In this document: positions 2,083 through 11,726 of the stretch, one piece after another
Position numbering within the stretch: the first letter of the stretch is position 1
Layout of the letters: each line of letters opens with the position of its first letter
NCBI GenBank assembly: GCA_027604185.1
Contig: JADGKB010000207.1
Span: 1-12,001 of the forward strand
Source of the DNA: Boothiomyces macroporosus
Lineage: Eukaryota > Chytridiomycota > Chytridiomycetes > Rhizophydiales > Terramycetaceae
Direction of reading: 5' to 3'
Length of the DNA: 12,001 bases
Notes under the pieces: model-generated
Told to the model about the DNA's origin: nothing
The model's input: the letters and a program-made list of their open reading frames with translations, nothing else
Database searches by the model: none
Made by a program: the position numbers and the translations under genes

Positions 2083-4050
2083 ATGATATTCAGTGAAATC
2101 AACAATGAATATTTTCTAATTGCAAAATACTTTACACTGTCAGAATTAATTCAATTCCTATCAGCCATCAAGTGTGACGTGGATTTTAAAACACACATCA
2201 ACAAGATTTATTTCCGGCAGTCGATTCTAGAATATTTCAAATGCGACGAAAGGGGTCCAATCAATTACAGGCCATACTTTACTCGGTTTGAAGAGTTTAT
2301 CGAGTTTCTATACAATACCGGAAATTTGGTTCAAGCGATTTTAAAGATCAAGCACATGATGTTCATCCAGCCTTATTTTCGTTTTAATCAGTTTGATCCC
2401 AGGCAAGTGATGGTGGAGAATAGTATTGAATACCTCGCGTCTTTGGCGTTCCATGCGCAGAGCAATTTCCAGCGATTGCTCAATCACTCTGTGGTTAGAG
2501 GATCCATGTATGGACTAGAGTACTTTTTAAAGTCATCGATAGACCTAGACTTCAACACTACATTTATCATAGCAGTGAAATTAAACAGACTAGAAATGGT
2601 AAAACTGCTCCTCAAAGATCCAAGAGTAGATCCATGTTGTTTCAATAATCGAGCACTGGAGATTGCATGCAGAACGAATATTGCGATGGTACAAGTATTG
2701 CTGGATGATAAAAGAACATTTTCCAAGTTTGCAGTGGTATGTGCTAGTTATAAAGGCAATTTGCCGATAGTTCAACTTCTACTGCAAGATGATAGATTTA
2801 TACTCACAAATAGAGCCCTCAGAGATGCTGTTACTATGGGGCACACAGAAATTGCAAAACTATTGGTTGAAAAAGGGTTGGATCCCAGTGTGGATGATAA
2901 TTTGAATATTCAAAGAGCTGCTCAAAATGGACATTATAGTCTGGTAGAATACCTGCTCAGAGACCCTAGAGTAGATCCAGCAAGTAAAAACAATCAAGCT
3001 GTTGGCCAGGCTGCAAGAAGAGGATATCTGGATATAGTAAAGCTACTATTGACGGACAAACGGGTTAAAGTAAATAATCGGTCAATAGTGGAAGCTGCTA
3101 TTGGTGGGCATTTTGAAACGGTAGAATTTTTGACTATTGAATTTGATATTGTTGCTGTCGATTCAGCACTAAATGATAAACTAGGCATATATTGCGCCTG
3201 CGTCCACAGAGGAAAGTTAGACATTTTGGATCTCGTTCATCCGTTCCTAGAGAAATCTCCAACGATTGAAGAGTACCCGTACAAAGCAAGATTACAGTCT
3301 GCATTCATAAAAGCCGCCAGGAAAGGCTATACTAAAGTTGTGAAATTTCTTGTACAAAATGCAAAAGTCAATCCATCAATTGAAAATAACTCTGCTTTCA
3401 TGTATGCAGTGAAACGCGGTCATGATGATATTGTAGCATTTCTGCTTGAGCAAAGCTCTGTTGATCCAGCAAATGTGGTAAATGCAAGTTTCAATAGAAA
3501 TGAACCAATTAGGGAAGCTGCATCAAGTGGATATTCGAGAATAGTAGAGTTACTTTTATCTCAACAAACAGTAGATCCCAATGTAGCTCCATACGGAAAA
3601 GCGCCTCCACTTGCTCTTGCAGTAATTAATGGCCATGTTGATGTAGTAAAAGCTCTCCTCAAAAACCGAAAAGTTGATCCAGCAGTGAACGATAGTATGG
3701 CATTTCGCGAAGCTGCCAAGAAGGAAAACATTGAAATACTTGACCTACTTTTAAAAGATGGTCGGTCCAAATTCAACGCTAAAAAGAATGAAGCATTCAT
3801 ATCAGCAATTAAAGTTGGCAATCCACAAATAATCAGATTGCTCTTGAATGAAAAAACTATATCTCCAAATGCAGAAAACAATTTTGCAATTAAACATTGC
3901 GCTCAAATGGGGAATTTGGAGCTTGTAGAAATGCTCTTGAGTGATGTGCGTGTAGATCATACCTGTGATAACAACCATGCTTTATGGCGAGCTGAGTTGT
4001 ATGGACATACTAAAGTAGCTGAATTATTAAATGGCTTTAATAAAAAGTGA
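2083..4050 (+). CDS. Ankyrin-repeat protein, 655 aa, possibly F-box-like at the N-terminus
   Basis: An uninterrupted frame from ATG to TGA. Residues about 130-650 form some 16-17 ankyrin repeats with the recurrent pattern AxxxGHxxIVxLLLxDxRVDP, for example residues 171-184 (EMVKLLLKDPRVDP), 281-299 and 513-533. This predicts an elongated solenoid for protein binding. There is no signal peptide and no membrane segment, so a cytosolic or nuclear location is inferred. Residues 1-40 (SEINNEYFLIAKYFTLSELI onward) resemble the F-box layout often fused to ankyrin arrays in fungi, which would suggest a ubiquitin-ligase substrate adaptor. That likeness is by eye and weak. Residues 350-405 are irregular, with a longer insert between repeats. 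AATAAA at 4039-4044 lies within the last codons. It stands downstream of a decayed ankyrin gene and converges with the Yip1-family gene. The binding partner is unknown. Confidence 0.93.
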   Translation: MIFSEINNEYFLIAKYFTLSELIQFLSAIKCDVDFKTHINKIYFRQSILEYFKCDERGPINYRPYFTRFEEFIEFLYNTGNLVQAILKIKHMMFIQPYFRFNQFDPRQVMVENSIEYLASLAFHAQSNFQRLLNHSVVRGSMYGLEYFLKSSIDLDFNTTFIIAVKLNRLEMVKLLLKDPRVDPCCFNNRALEIACRTNIAMVQVLLDDKRTFSKFAVVCASYKGNLPIVQLLLQDDRFILTNRALRDAVTMGHTEIAKLLVEKGLDPSVDDNLNIQRAAQNGHYSLVEYLLRDPRVDPASKNNQAVGQAARRGYLDIVKLLLTDKRVKVNNRSIVEAAIGGHFETVEFLTIEFDIVAVDSALNDKLGIYCACVHRGKLDILDLVHPFLEKSPTIEEYPYKARLQSAFIKAARKGYTKVVKFLVQNAKVNPSIENNSAFMYAVKRGHDDIVAFLLEQSSVDPANVVNASFNRNEPIREAASSGYSRIVELLLSQQTVDPNVAPYGKAPPLALAVINGHVDVVKALLKNRKVDPAVNDSMAFREAAKKENIEILDLLLKDGRSKFNAKKNEAFISAIKVGNPQIIRLLLNEKTISPNAENNFAIKHCAQMGNLELVEMLLSDVRVDHTCDNNHALWRAELYGHTKVAELLNGFNKK

Positions 4051-4533: not shown

Positions 4534-5254
4534 TTATTCAGAAATCAATATTAACCAACTAATCATGAAATAAAACAAAAAGATGGGGTAGATTGCCAGT
4601 AGCCTCTTGTTGTCCAAATTCATATCCGTCAAGAAATTAAGCGAAGCTAGGTTAGAAAGAATCAACCATAGGTAGCCCACACATAGGCAACTATAACACA
4701 CACGAATTTGATAATGTAAGGTATCGCCCAAGTAAACATTGACACAGCAACAAGTGGAAAGATGCAGTAGCCTAATACACACACCGACTGATAAAACGAT
4801 CTAGATTAAATATGGGTACATTGTGCCTCCCAACAATTTAGAGTTTAATGTAACTACAGCTGACCCGAACCATATAATGAAAAATGTTGCAGAAAAGACA
4901 GCTGGTCCCTGGTCTTTTAACGCAGTCAAACTCAATCTCCTGATTTTAAACAAAAATTACACAGAGAGCGCCAGACATAGTAATAACGGTCCCCACCAAT
5001 CCCAATCTCTCAAGAGATTCTGTTTATTGGTTTGACGAGGATCCAACACATGCCGAATCTTGTTCCATATGTTGGTTACATCTCTCATCTTTGTTAGTGA
5101 TGGTTACTATTGTGACTTTGATTGGTTCATCGAGTGTGTTTTCGATTTTGGGTTGCTCTGTCTGCGGTCCAATGTTTCCTTGAACACTAGTGATATCTAT
5201 TGCATGTGAAAATTCAATTTCTGGGTCTTGTAGCTGTGTGTATTTTCCAGCCAT
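4534..5254 (-). CDS. YIPF6/Yip4-like Yip1-family Golgi membrane protein, five exons, 213 aa
   Basis: Exons (minus): 5254-5108, 5088-4961, 4939-4820, 4800-4667, 4646-4534; total 642 nt including TAA. Yip1-family proteins span ER and Golgi membranes and bind Rab GTPases in vesicle transport. After splicing the family signatures appear in order: cytosolic TLDEPIKVTI (residues 40-49), LLRDWDWWGPLLL (74-86), AVVTLNSKLLGG (about 119-130), FYQSVCVLGYCIFPL (134-148) and NKRLLAIYPIFLFYF (about 188-202). The C-terminal half holds about five membrane spans. The closest layout I recall is YIPF6 of animals and Yip4 of yeast; the length (about 235 in those) agrees. The ATG opens the acidic cytosolic domain. 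The first two introns fall between TLDEP and WWGP and straight after the first membrane span; all four contain or cause a stop if retained. AATAAA overlaps the TAA (minus 4538-4533). Subfamily is less sure than family. Confidence 0.9.
4647..4666 (-). other. 20-nt spliceosomal intron 4 of the Yip1-family gene
   Basis: Sequence on the minus strand GTTGATTCTTTCTAACCTAG. Phase 1; joining gives an Ala codon and links VWATY to ASLNFLTDMN. It has CTAAC followed by CTAG. Retention creates a TGA at once. Confidence 0.9.
4801..4819 (-). other. 19-nt spliceosomal intron 3 of the Yip1-family gene
   Basis: Sequence on the minus strand GTACCCATATTTAATCTAG. Phase 2; joining rebuilds an Ile codon and restores SKLLGGT-I-SFYQSVCVLGY, a highly conserved family stretch. 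TTAAT is followed by CTAG. Confidence 0.9.
4940..4960 (-). other. 21-nt spliceosomal intron 2 of the Yip1-family gene
   Basis: It begins GTAATTTTTG and ends TTTAAAATCAG on the minus strand. Phase 2; the junction rebuilds a Val codon. It is a multiple of three but contains an in-frame TAA when retained. The TTTAAAAT stretch sits where the branch motif lies in the others. Confidence 0.88.
5089..5107 (-). other. 19-nt spliceosomal intron 1 of the Yip1-family gene
   Basis: Sequence on the minus strand GTAACCATCACTAACAAAG. Phase 0, between the codons for TI and MRD. It contains a textbook CTAAC branch motif whose A lies about 5 nt before the end of the intron. Reading through shifts the frame away from the RDWDWWGP motif. 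Confidence 0.88.
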
Positions 5255-5466: not shown

Positions 5467-6231
5467 TTAATAGTTTTTATTACTGGAATCAGCTTCTTCT
5501 TTTGATATCTCTGCTGCCAGCATGCGACAGACAGAGTAGTGCAATAAGATTAATCCTACACTCCCCAGTAAGCTGACCAACCTTCCGTCTCTTCCCAAAT
5601 TAGAAATCAATAAAACGATTCCAAGCAGCCCATCAACCAACTGAAACCCAGATATAGCTATATAATTCAATCCCAGTTTACGCACCACACCATTGCTCAG
5701 CTGTGAGATATCCTTGATCAAATAAAGAATCCAAATTGTTGAAAACATTCGAGGAATACACACCGCACTCTGGATTATATTGACTGCAATTAGTGTTTGG
5801 AACATTGGAGGTAGGTCATAGTAAGCAGACAAGTAATCCAAAGTCAAAAAAATTCCATCAACAAAGAGCGCAATCGTAATCAAAAGTCTAGCAATATCAG
5901 CCATATATGCTTGTGACGGTCTAACTGCTTTGACAATTGCTATAAACTGTGAAAATTCTAGGTAGGCTATTGCTGGGCAACTTGTCATCCAAAATAAAGA
6001 GGCAATGACGTTCAGCACAGAGCTAGTAGATGTTGAAACGGAATTCAACTTTGAAATACATACTAGAACGTAATATGTACTGTATAGTAGGAATAGTCCC
6101 AGAGCTTTGAATCTATTTACTCTGCCGGTAGTAGCAACCACTGTAACCAGATCTGCAGCCAAAGTCATACAGAGTAGTAATTCACCAATTCTATCGTAAG
6201 CAAGATCATTGTTGAACAACGAGGTAGTCAT
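5467..6231 (-). CDS. Unrecognised integral membrane protein, about seven spans, 254 aa
   Basis: An uninterrupted frame from ATG (6231-6229) to TAA. Hydrophobic segments lie at about residues 14-36, 41-61, 71-100, 113-133, 145-172, 188-211 and 217-239, followed by a charged tail (EISKEEADSSNKNY). There is no cleavable signal peptide. Seven spans of this length recall small seven-helix proteins. The retinal-lysine context of rhodopsins is not evident, and I see no DRY or NPxxY motif of class A receptors, so receptor status is not supported. The last codons (AAT AAA AAC TAT TAA) contain AATAAA at minus 5481-5476. It is transcribed in the same direction as the Yip1-family gene, 212 bp upstream of it; the spacing gives no reason to link their functions. 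No family assigned. Confidence 0.8.
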   Translation of the reverse strand: MTTSLFNNDLAYDRIGELLLCMTLAADLVTVVATTGRVNRFKALGLFLLYSTYYVLVCISKLNSVSTSTSSVLNVIASLFWMTSCPAIAYLEFSQFIAIVKAVRPSQAYMADIARLLITIALFVDGIFLTLDYLSAYYDLPPMFQTLIAVNIIQSAVCIPRMFSTIWILYLIKDISQLSNGVVRKLGLNYIAISGFQLVDGLLGIVLLISNLGRDGRLVSLLGSVGLILLHYSVCRMLAAEISKEEADSSNKNY

Positions 6232-7289: not shown

Positions 7290-8402
7290 ATGAAATTCCT
7301 AACACTTGCTGCATTGTTAGTGGCTGCTGCTGCCCAAGATACCAATGGAACAGACTACCCAAGAAACGATACCGAATCTACTGATTTGGACAGCTCCTTC
7401 AGCTCCGTAGGTTATCGCAACTTTCAAATTCCAGAAGCTGATGCTGAAGACTTGAACGAAGGATTCACTGTCTACAATGGAACAAATGGAAGGGCTCTTA
7501 GGGTAAAAGTTGAAGACAAAAGGGTTATTGTCTTTTCCTTCAATCCAAGCACTAATGCAACCACTGCACTTCGATTCAACGTCAAAAACGAACCTCGATT
7601 GGGATTGGAATGGCACCGTGCTAGCAGTACCCTCAATGATACCAAGGCTCCACCAGTTGCATTTGCAACCAGAATGATGGGTCTCTTTGAAACCAATACT
7701 ACTTCAAACACTTTCTGGAACACTACTGGCACCCAGTACTTGTTCAAGAACTGGGACTGGAGCGACATCTCAATTACTTGGGCCAACAACTCCAACAGCA
7801 TTCCAGCTCTTTATTTGAACTCTATTGGTTCACCAAACAATCAAACCAGTCCAAAAGTCAATTTGACTGTGGAAATTCCATCCAACAGTTACAATGCCGC
7901 TAGTGGATTTACCATCAGCCCAACCGGTTTGAAATACGACTTTGACATTATCGGTCAAATGAACTATACCTTGGCTCCAGCAACCTCCTCTTCTTGGCAA
8001 CTAGTTAGCAGAGTGTTCACCTCTACTACAAACGCAACATTCTCCAACAACACCATTGCTGACGCAAACAATGCCGCCAAGCTACAATGGATCAGAAATC
8101 TCACTGTTGATGGACAACCAGCCAACATGATTGTCAATGGTATCATGCCAATTCCATCAAAATTCGCATGGGGTACTGGTGATATCTCTAGCAGAGATGA
8201 AATGTTGGACAATGTTTGCTCCAAGATGGCTCTAGTTCAAACCCTCCCATACTTTAACCAATCAGTTTACTGGGATCCGCTCGTTAACGTTGACGAAAAC
8301 CAAGCTCTCAATGCTGCAATTGCTAGCAGTGCTTTCAAGAAGGCTGGATACTCATTGACTTCTATGGCAGTTGTCTTGATCACTGCCATCTTCTTGCTTT
8401 AA
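7290..8402 (+). CDS. Secreted, heavily N-glycosylated, probably GPI-anchored protein, 370 aa
   Basis: An uninterrupted frame from ATG to TAA. Residues 1-15 (MKFLTLAALLVAAAA) form a signal peptide, with cleavage likely before Gln16. Fifteen N-x-S/T sequons are visible (N19, 26, 63, 89, 116, 136, 144, 166, 184, 191, 225, 248, 253, 270, 323). The C-terminus has small residues (ASSA at 345-348), a short KK-containing spacer and a hydrophobic end (about 359-370), the layout of a GPI-attachment signal; a single anchor helix is the alternative. The interior is rich in Asn, Thr and Ser with aromatic pairs (WDWSDISITW, 155-164), suggesting a beta-rich extracellular domain. I do not recognise the family; a cell-surface or wall role is inferred. 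Codon use looks C-biased at wobble positions, which may mean high expression. The start is supported by the TATA box 37 nt upstream. AATAAA at 8401-8406 overlaps the TAA. Confidence 0.9.
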   Translation: MKFLTLAALLVAAAAQDTNGTDYPRNDTESTDLDSSFSSVGYRNFQIPEADAEDLNEGFTVYNGTNGRALRVKVEDKRVIVFSFNPSTNATTALRFNVKNEPRLGLEWHRASSTLNDTKAPPVAFATRMMGLFETNTTSNTFWNTTGTQYLFKNWDWSDISITWANNSNSIPALYLNSIGSPNNQTSPKVNLTVEIPSNSYNAASGFTISPTGLKYDFDIIGQMNYTLAPATSSSWQLVSRVFTSTTNATFSNNTIADANNAAKLQWIRNLTVDGQPANMIVNGIMPIPSKFAWGTGDISSRDEMLDNVCSKMALVQTLPYFNQSVYWDPLVNVDENQALNAAIASSAFKKAGYSLTSMAVVLITAIFLL

Positions 8403-8579: not shown

Positions 8580-9311
8580 CTAAGCAAATTTCAAAAAATC
8601 ATTCCACAATTCATCGACTGGCGAATAAACAGCCTTTTGCAATTGCAGCAAAGTATACTTTTGAAACTGTGATATTTCTGCATACAACATATCTGAGAAT
8701 TCCCTCTCTCTATCTTTGGCTGTCATGCCTTTCAAATCGGGGTGATCTGCCACATTCCCAAACCTAACAGCAATATCTTTGGATATCCACTCCCCAACTT
8801 GGACCCACCCTTTCCGTGTTTCTGCATAAATCGACAAGGTTAAATTTACCAAATCTTTTTTTCTATCCCTAATTGCTAATTTGATTCGTTTATACTTGAT
8901 TTGCAAATCTTCTGGTTTTAGTTTATGGATAGAAAGTTTATGTTTGTTGATGGTATCAGTGCTAAATATGATTTCATTTGGCGTTTCAGTCCTTGACCTG
9001 CGTGTCAAGTCAGTAACTTGTTCAAGCCGAATGCCGCTAGCTTCTTTAACTACAGTCTTGAATTTCCCAGTTAGTTGCGTATTTGAATAGATTAATATTT
9101 TTTCTTCCAGTAATCTAAAGAATGTTGGGTGTAGCCGCAAGGATATATGCAAGTAGTTTGCTTTGAGGCAGGTAATAGTACGGCTGCTGTTCCTGTTGGC
9201 CCAGAACAGATTGCGGTCGCAAGCAACGTGAAAGCAATCGCTGATATGAACGGCTTCTCCTCCAATAATCAAACATTTGTCTGTCCAAGACCCAAGGATT
9301 GATTCAAACAT
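8580..9311 (-). CDS. Unrecognised 243-aa protein
   Basis: An uninterrupted frame from ATG (9311-9309) to TAG. There is no signal peptide or membrane segment, so it is probably soluble and intracellular. Residues 1-60 contain several Cys and His (CLIIGGEAVHISDCFHVAC) and could begin a beta-rich fold. The middle (residues 80-165) is basic with repeated LKPEDLQIKYKRIKLAIRD-like character. The C-terminus (about 195-243) is a predicted helix with AKDREREFSDMLYAEISQFQ. No catalytic motif is clear. A 21-nt GT...AG stretch at 9181-9161 (minus) could be removed in frame but lacks a branch-like motif, so I keep it as coding. It converges with the glycoprotein gene and diverges from the PHI-1 gene. Real by length and composition; function unknown. 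Confidence 0.75.
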   Translation of the reverse strand: MFESILGSWTDKCLIIGGEAVHISDCFHVACDRNLFWANRNSSRTITCLKANYLHISLRLHPTFFRLLEEKILIYSNTQLTGKFKTVVKEASGIRLEQVTDLTRRSRTETPNEIIFSTDTINKHKLSIHKLKPEDLQIKYKRIKLAIRDRKKDLVNLTLSIYAETRKGWVQVGEWISKDIAVRFGNVADHPDLKGMTAKDREREFSDMLYAEISQFQKYTLLQLQKAVYSPVDELWNDFLKFA

Positions 9312-9981: not shown

Positions 9982-11024
9982 ATGAAATTCATTCTACTAG
10001 CGTCACTAGCATTCGCAAAACGGCATTCTGGGTCAGGAAGGCACTCGTTACACCCTCACGGCGAACCGAATAATTACCCTGGATACAGCGATGATGAACT
10101 GGAATACTCCAATTATGACTCTACCAACAGTAATTCTCATCAATATCAATACTCACCTTCCAATGATCGACATGGTGATTCGTACAACTATGCCGAGTAT
10201 CACCAAGATCATTATTCCCTCCACCCACACGGTAAATCACTCCGATCCGAAATGAATGTATTTGCCTTTTCCAGTTCATTTGGGAAAGCGTTCTCGCTGA
10301 ATAGCGATAGTGCACCTTCTGGCAATTTGAAATACCGCGGAGGCCCAGTAGTATCCAACATTGAAGTAACTCCTATTTACTATGGAAATTTCAAATACAT
10401 GTCTGAGATTACCGCATTCTATAAGGGTATTGTTGATTCTACTTATATGGACTGGCTGTCTGAATACAACACTCATACGCAAAAGATTGGAAGAGGAAAA
10501 GGGTTTGGTGGGATTATTGTAAAGAATCCTAAAAAAACTGTAACCACGAGTGACTTGGAAATGCTGTTTGACACCTTGATTGAACAGCGGTTTATCAAGC
10601 CAAACCAAAACTCTTACTACCCAATTCACTTTGCAAAAGGAATCACAGTCACTTCAGAGGCAGGAATGTGTAGTAAATGGTGTGGTAATATTGTTTAATT
10701 GTAGCTTATCATTCATCGTTCACTACAAAGTCTGGAGTGTTGATTTTGTACGGCATTATACCTGATTTGGATGACCAAGGCTGCGCTGGTGCTTGCGGTC
10801 TAAGCAGTGATTTGAACAACATCATGTCTACCTCTGCGCATGAGTTGATTGAAACTGTTACTGATCCAATTAGTCACAATCTTGCTTGGTATGATGATGG
10901 AGATGACAAAGGTGAAATTGCAGATATTTGCAACCAAATGCAAGGCAATGTCATTGGCGGCGATGGAAACTCTTATGTTGTTCAATTACAATGGAGCAAC
11001 AAGGAGCAAAAGTGTCGTTTGTGA
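9982..11024 (+). CDS. PHI-1/EXORDIUM-like secreted protein, two exons, 340 aa
   Basis: Exons 9982-10684 and 10705-11024, total 1023 nt including TGA. The start is the ATG that opens a signal peptide (MKFILLASLAFA, cleavage about residue 12); the same frame reads further upstream without an ATG. Residues 13-90 are a low-complexity His/Tyr/Ser/Asn-rich linker with the motif SLHPHG twice. The PHI-1 (phosphate-induced protein 1) domain spans about 110-340, with GGPVVSNIEVTPIYYGNF, MCSKWC-AYHSSF across the splice junction, a Cys-rich DDQGCAGACG, STSAHELIETVTDP (276-289) and LAWYDDGDDKGEIADIC. In plants, members affect growth at the cell wall; in fungi the role is little known. The HExxE-TDP signature resembles a metalloprotease motif, but activity is unproven. 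Without splicing, the frame stops at TAA 10696. AATAAA lies at 11028-11033, just past the TGA. Confidence 0.92.
10685..10704 (+). other. 20-nt spliceosomal intron of the PHI-1-like gene
   Basis: GTAATATTGTTTAATTGTAG, phase 1. Removal joins TGT-G to CT and yields CSKWCAYHSSF, matching the conserved CxxxC(G/A)YH stretch of the family. TTAAT lies 5 nt before the acceptor end. A 35-nt alternative from 10670 also keeps frame but deletes the conserved cysteines. Confidence 0.9.
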
Positions 11025-11179: not shown

Positions 11180-11201
11180 TTACCAAACAAAAAGTAAATT
11201 C

Positions 11202-11726
11202 ATGACCCAAAAAGATCCAGAATACCAATACTCAGCACCAGATCTTACTCCACCGCAAGTCTACCCTAGTGACTTTGTAATCAAAGAGTTTCATTTCCAC
11301 ACATATTGGTTCCTCCATGATAAAAAGACTCAAGACAAGGCAGAAGAATTGTTTTACAAAATACAGAAATCAAGGTTTGGAAAGCCATTGCGATTAAACT
11401 ACGAGCCTGTTGGTCCACATCCGATTGGGTCGTTTGAAACCTGGGTTCCAATTGAATACTTTGCTGAAGCATATTCTTTTTTTTTGCTAAACAGAGGAGA
11501 GTTGAGTGTTCTCCTTCATCCGCTGACTAGGGAGGAACAGAGGGATCATACGGAAAGAGCTGTTTGGTTAGGAAAGCCAATTCCACTTAAAGTTGATGTT
11601 CTTCCTGTATTGTCTGATACGGAGCCAAGACAGTACCCAGAGCTAGGGCTGGGATACAGCAAGAATGAATATACTGTTTTGATTTACTTGTTTTTAATCT
11701 TAATATACATTTACTTTTTCTACTAG
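11202..11726 (+). CDS. DOPA 4,5-dioxygenase family protein with a hydrophobic C-terminal tail, 174 aa
   Basis: An uninterrupted frame from ATG to TAG. The family cleaves the ring of L-DOPA or related catechols between carbons 4 and 5; in plants and the fly agaric related activities lead to betalain-type pigments. Visible signatures are EFHFHTYWF (residues 27-35), GPHPIGSFETWVP (72-84), LSVLLHPLT (101-109) and RDHTERAVWLG (114-124). The His residues in FHFH, LHP and DHT are candidate Fe(II) ligands. Family members usually end near the GLGYSKN stretch. Here it continues as EYTVLIYLFLILIYIYFFY, an 18-residue hydrophobic helix, which would make it tail-anchored. A missed splice or chance extension is the alternative. 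It follows the PHI-1-like gene by 177 bp with its own TATA box. The substrate is inferred from family only. Confidence 0.9.
   Translation: MTQKDPEYQYSAPDLTPPQVYPSDFVIKEFHFHTYWFLHDKKTQDKAEELFYKIQKSRFGKPLRLNYEPVGPHPIGSFETWVPIEYFAEAYSFFLLNRGELSVLLHPLTREEQRDHTERAVWLGKPIPLKVDVLPVLSDTEPRQYPELGLGYSKNEYTVLIYLFLILIYIYFFY

Follow-up and report, generated by a model that had tools for sequence, protein, structure and literature searches.

Four GT...AG segments of 19 to 21 nt interrupt a Yip1-family gene in the window, the whole stretch of DNA analysed here, which is an entire contig of 12,001 bases within a 15.2-Mb assembly of 216 contigs. These segments almost certainly belong to a class of U2-type spliceosomal introns of ultra-short length, which would number in the thousands across the genome and is probably its near-sole intron class. 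Their length is near the minimum recorded for any organism, while the genome appears to retain the greater part of a splicing apparatus of normal appearance.

The Yip locus illustrates the class in a single gene. The first-pass annotation had proposed that removal of four tiny GT...AG segments restores one 213-aa frame, and a direct check of the sequence verified coordinates, lengths and frame alike. Left unspliced, the locus carries stop codons in all three minus-strand frames; without the four segments (19, 21, 19 and 20 nt, at the coordinates first proposed) it forms 642 nt that encode 213 aa and a stop. The gene is arranged as follows, where "ungapped" denotes the lack of a gap within 3 residues of the junction in an alignment of 20 homologues hand-chosen from 120 listed.

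5108..5254, minus strand: Yip exon 1, 147 nt
5089..5107, minus strand: Yip intron 1, 19 nt, GTAACCATCACTAACAAAG, phase 0, branch motif CTAAC; ungapped in 16 of 20 homologues
4961..5088, minus strand: Yip exon 2, 128 nt
4940..4960, minus strand: Yip intron 2, 21 nt, GTAATTTTTGTTTAAAATCAG, phase 2; ungapped in 18 of 20 homologues
4820..4939, minus strand: Yip exon 3, 120 nt, 40 codons; absent from the annotated Boothiomyces sp. JEL0866 protein
4801..4819, minus strand: Yip intron 3, 19 nt, GTACCCATATTTAATCTAG, phase 2, branch motif TTAAT; ungapped in 19 of 20 homologues
4667..4800, minus strand: Yip exon 4, 134 nt
4647..4666, minus strand: Yip intron 4, 20 nt, GTTGATTCTTTCTAACCTAG, phase 1, branch motif CTAAC; ungapped in 19 of 20 homologues
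4534..4646, minus strand: Yip exon 5 with the stop codon, 113 nt

The spliced product is by homology a YIPF6-type protein of the Yip1 family. The Pfam Yip1 profile matches residues 63-208 (E 9.8e-19, 68.3 bits against a curated cut-off of 28.6), and the best relatives among 120 listed matches are chytrid proteins, some of them labelled Yip1 member 6 or YIPF6. The top relative among the matches listed comes from Boothiomyces sp. JEL0866, with 95% identity over aligned positions. As a protein it is an ordinary member of its family, with nothing unusual noted, and a PDB search with it gave 0 matches. Alignment to YIPF6-type relatives had been suggested as a check, and it bore the gene structure out, the junctions being ungapped in 16, 18, 19 and 19 of 20 rows. 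The four exceptions at junction 1 are proteins whose start falls just past that junction; at the other junctions they are one protein without exon 3 and one with 6 extra residues at junction 2 that also diverges at junction 4.

These last two proteins seem to carry traces of the same segments. In the annotated Boothiomyces protein, residues 93-132 are missing, a gap that corresponds exactly to the 40 codons of exon 3 and looks as though the annotation had merged that exon and its flanking introns 2 and 3 into a single intron. At intron 2, a metagenomic relative carries precisely six additional residues; their back-translation would fit an 18-nt segment of the form GTAY..AG. The same protein leaves the family pattern at intron 4. 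Because of this gap and this six-residue insertion, tiny introns are probably common to close relatives, and, judging from one case, the protein sets of the Boothiomyces group may hold many such exon losses. A CLC transporter on another contig (C8) was compared in the same way with 7 of 120 listed homologues. It is 94% identical to the protein of Boothiomyces sp. JEL0866, 93% to a partial one of Terramyces sp. JEL0728 and 68% to that of Globomyces sp. JEL0801. The Boothiomyces CLC protein is full length (698 aa), so its gene appears to be annotated without visible error. Together, the Yip and CLC proteins place the host among Rhizophydiales chytrids (Chytridiomycota), within the Terramycetaceae or close beside them. 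Chytrids of this kind live freely as saprobes.

Another short intron was modelled in the neighbouring Phi_1-domain gene (9982-11024) of the window:

10685..10704, plus strand: Phi_1 intron, 20 nt, GTAATATTGTTTAATTGTAG, frame restored

The spliced Phi_1 product gives a weak family match (31.1 bits against a cut-off of 25). A nested 32-nt intron, the gene finder's choice at this place, was dropped for the 20-nt form on the basis of the family pattern. Other parts of the window include an intronless 655-aa ankyrin-repeat ORF in a gene-finder model (2083-4050, plus strand), a Dopa 4,5-dioxygenase family ORF (11199-11726, plus strand; Pfam E 1.4e-29) and three coding-like ORFs with no Pfam match at E 0.001 (5470-6231, minus strand; 7290-8399, plus strand; 8583-9311, minus strand). 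An Rfam scan of the window gave 0 matches.

Beyond the window, the abundance of the class was estimated with a strict pattern, GTAHN{6,7}YTAAYN{2,3}AG, and with the same pattern reversed as a control. Across the whole 15.2-Mb genome the strict pattern matches 8,955 times and its reverse 742 times, giving an expected background of about 8% among the strict matches. The excess of about 8,200 matches above control is the firmer genome-wide figure; extrapolation from a ratio of 68/154 puts the total, very roughly, at 15,000-20,000 tiny introns. A 242-kb sample was also assembled from 23 stretches of 10 kb on 20 large contigs (C1-C20) together with the window, two stretches that duplicate window sequence being excluded. 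In this sample the strict pattern has 134 sites, compared with 2-11 in each of nine controls. Predicted genes, which span 62% of the sample, contain 76 of the 134 on their coding strand and 2 on the other; the remaining 56 lie outside them. A modelled intron coincides with 68 of the 134 sites. Since the same spacing and branch motif occur in strong genome-wide excess, the Yip segments are more than chance. On contig C1, the same pair of intron sequences found at about 16455-16829 recurs 2,469 bases on, at 18924-19298, which suggests a tandem duplicate gene.

The lengths of these introns fall within a narrow range. Sites of the form GTAH..YTAAY-N1,4-AG in the 242-kb sample number 42, 81, 37 and 24 at 19, 20, 21 and 22 nt, compared with 4-9 for every length at 16-18 and 23-30 nt and an average of about 6.5 at lengths of 31-200 nt, and the peak vanishes when the donor, acceptor or branch motif of the pattern is altered. 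Gene finding was performed by dynamic programming trained on long open frames, using borders only and no length preference. With GT..AG borders it returned 63 introns of 19-22 nt in the 242 kb, against 0, 6, 3, 7, 5, 4 and 9 for seven control pairs. In the coding regions of the sample no GT..AG excess appeared at 23-30, 31-60, 61-100 or 101-250 nt, where the counts were 10, 26, 33 and 185 against control ranges of 10-22, 37-46, 33-43 and 190-205. Noisier than border-only gene finding, a test that counted GT..AG segments between coding-like flanks yielded 32 of 19-22 nt, where twelve other border pairs yielded 0-12; over 15-25 nt its result was less clean, with 52 against 6-42.

When splice-signal models were included, 154 of 214 introns in the sample measured 17-24 nt, 2 measured 16 nt, none fell at 25-28 nt and 58 fell at 29-100 nt; in this signal-model gene set, 53 of 87 genes contain at least one short intron. 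The gene finder failed to report the Yip gene, and its SF1 and Slu7 models include doubtful introns of 13, 24 and 65 nt. A length distribution had been proposed as a check by the first-pass annotation, and across predicted introns and pattern sites in the 242-kb sample it peaks at 19-22 nt. This peak is narrow and lies at or below about 25 nt, as in genomes with uniformly ultra-short introns. At the sequence level, the pattern excess, the border-only gene finding and the length spectrum lend strong support to the wider proposal, that a fungal host has ultra-short introns throughout its genome; the two proteins described above support the fungal host.

The introns share a compact anatomy, with class lengths of 19-22 nt and a mode of 20. 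The donor reads GUA(A), with U favoured at +5 and +6 and G at +5 in merely 16-19%, and about two thirds of the introns have T immediately before the AG. Of the 63 border-only introns, 44 carry T[AG]A[CT] at 3-5 nt from the end, a motif that played no part in their selection; the corresponding counts are 35 of 244 for longer predicted segments and 1,765 of 28,472 (6.2%) for AG sites at large. Where a branch site can be recognised in introns of 19-23 nt, its A occupies nt 14-17 and is followed by 4-7 nt. The A+T content is 72% in short introns and 60% in coding sequence. Excision from RNA is predicted from the DNA and from protein homology, and use of this branch point is predicted as well.

Protein-level controls were drawn from other genes. 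Five proteins, comprising four of the 53 short-intron models plus U2AF65 and picked for expected conservation rather than at random, were aligned with solved structures. All 13 junctions inside the printed alignments, as read by eye, lacked a gap within three residues: 3 in a CLC-3 homologue, 2 in U2AF65, 2 in HisC, 4 in RuvBL2 and 2 in an acyl-CoA dehydrogenase whose query was trimmed to 335 of 464 residues. Among the other U2AF65 junctions, one lies in an unprinted domain match and one outside the match. Ten of the 53 models, chosen as likely known families, contain 37 short introns between them; a Pfam scan placed 19 of these within the best-matching stretch of an above-cut-off family, or 21 when two marginal matches of one protein are counted. 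The RuvBL2 and acyl-CoA dehydrogenase models, both on the minus strand, each contain a 7-residue insertion absent from the human protein, corresponding to a stop-free, in-frame 21-nt GT..AG segment that the gene finder retained as coding. Both segments would be introns that leave the frame open if kept.

Components of a U2-type spliceosome were also sought in the genome. Profile searches returned U4 (58 bits) and U6 (62 bits) above their Rfam cut-offs, two diverged U2 loci on different contigs (142 and 135 bits, above cut-off) with the same GTAGTA region, and a U1 candidate of 68.8 bits, just below its cut-off of 69.5. The recognition elements ACUUACCUG, GUAGUA and ACAGAGA are intact in the U1, U2 and U6 genes, respectively. 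At the U6 locus, two near-identical inverted stretches seem, by eye, to lie upstream of the match. For U5 there was no match in the genome at E <= 0.001, and the same search gave none in controls either; U5 may be divergent, lie outside the assembly or have been missed by this first look. SF1, Slu7 and Prp18 domains score above their cut-offs. Read through its introns, the U2AF large-subunit model reached 230.7 bits, below the cut-off of 310.3, and two bacterial controls also gave sub-cut-off matches; the spliced U2AF65 model, with modelled introns of 19, 20, 19 and 19 nt, matches U2AF65 structures at 1.3e-61. Judged by these similarities, U1 and U2AF65 are nearly certainly present. Yeast work indicates that a short branch-to-AG gap might permit loss of Slu7 or Prp18. 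Such a loss, as an adaptation to the short gap, was considered and ruled out here, both factors being present.

Ordinary two-step splicing, the likeliest mechanism, would proceed on these introns with little room to spare. The donor would be read by U1 and then by U6, while U2, through GUAGUA, would pair with the branch site, yielding a lariat loop of about 14-17 nt and a short tail. Since an intron of this length scarcely has space for U1, SF1/U2AF and U2 next to one another, assembly may proceed by stepwise hand-over or by exon definition, and U1 would presumably depart before or as U2 binds.

How complete the dominance of the class is depends on whether ordinary longer introns have escaped the tests. 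The signal pattern is blind to introns with a distant branch site, the signal models do place 58 of 214 introns at 29-100 nt, and the longer-intron tests cover coding regions and lengths up to 250 nt. Real ultra-short introns accompanied by a substantial longer class are nevertheless unlikely, given that border-only finding detects no GT..AG excess over controls in any bin from 23 to 250 nt and that the pattern spectrum shows no excess at 31-200 nt. The ultra-short introns are possibly the only class of the genome. A different concern is that the Yip gene could be a decayed copy, or could contain assembly indel errors, with GT..AG borders arising by chance, and a single assembly does lie behind the locus. 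This explanation is vanishingly improbable in view of thousands of segments that agree in borders, spacing and branch motif and show a strand bias towards genes, of the exact restoration of RuvBL2, CLC-3 homologues and other conserved genes, and of the traces of the same Yip segments in a relative's annotated protein and in a metagenomic protein.

The removing agent is itself deduced from sequence, which leaves some room for a non-spliceosomal one, such as DNA elimination or another RNA reaction. The segments are nonetheless present in the assembled genome, their GT..AG borders are combined with a branch motif matching the GUAGUA of U2, and the genome encodes U2, U4 and U6 and nearly certainly U1, with ACUUACCUG, GUAGUA and ACAGAGA, so that such an agent is very improbable. 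Within the preferred reading of U2-type spliceosomal introns, a more specific and tentative proposal, rated at somewhat less than an even chance, is that the spliceosome works as a fixed ruler: thousands of 19-22-nt introns would keep a near-constant donor-to-branch distance, longer introns would be lost or nearly so, and the setting would be a main genome not of parasite or relict size. If true, this would make it the first fungal genome of its kind. Earlier ultra-short cases concern a relict nucleus, ciliates and reduced parasites, leaving ambiguous whether an odd cell or a stripped spliceosome is needed. A 15-Mb fungus with several core factors and thousands of 20-nt introns makes the sharing of a tiny RNA by U1 and U2 testable, in the kingdom with the best-developed spliceosome biochemistry.

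Chlorarachniophyte nucleomorph introns have GT..AG borders as well, and the introns of Yarrowia lipolytica are far longer than those described here. Introns of 15-16 nt are described in heterotrich ciliates, 16-17 nt in mikrocytids and 18-21 nt in the chlorarachniophyte nucleomorph (PMC10245619), and Stentor coeruleus has 8,806 annotated introns of 15-16 nt (PMC9505925). Against this background, the first-pass claim that the usual minimum for spliceosome assembly is challenged was overstated: no absolute length limit is broken, since introns of similar or smaller size have been described from ciliates, mikrocytids and nucleomorphs, and the first-pass annotation had itself named ciliates and nucleomorphs. 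No chytrid or other fungus is reported to have introns so small in the portions covered of the open-licence literature (including PMC5364385, PMC13391722, PMC11649378, PMC9698843 and PMC6733946), a scope outside which JGI portal statistics, preprints and most subscription papers fall; the density table of PMC8476143 includes two Chytridiomycota. This absence lends weak support to novelty, and as far as seen the ultra-short kind is known and its occurrence in the fungal kingdom is new.

The nucleomorph comes closest in length, with nearly the same narrow range of 18-21 nt (PMC10245619), but its tiny introns are hosted by a relict endosymbiont nucleus, whereas here they occupy a main 15.2-Mb fungal genome. 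Mikrocytid introns of 16-17 nt are likewise uniform and conserved in sequence (PMC10245619), yet M. mackini is a reduced intracellular parasite with 224 introns, against at least about 8,000 here. In Yarrowia lipolytica the branch motif and the 3' splice site are nearly joined (PMC2911113), as they are here, and the likeness is confined to this 3' end. Stentor coeruleus shares the narrow length, the GT..AG borders, the A+T-richness and the conserved U1, U2 and U6 recognition elements, and its commonest intron likewise begins GUAAUU (PMC9505925). The 3' tail measures 5 nt in Stentor and 4-7 nt here, while the branch A lies at nt 10-11 in the ciliate and at nt 14-17 in the fungus, where the branch motif is clearer; the corresponding lariat loop of 10-11 nt in Stentor (PMC9505925) compares with the roughly 14-17 nt proposed here.
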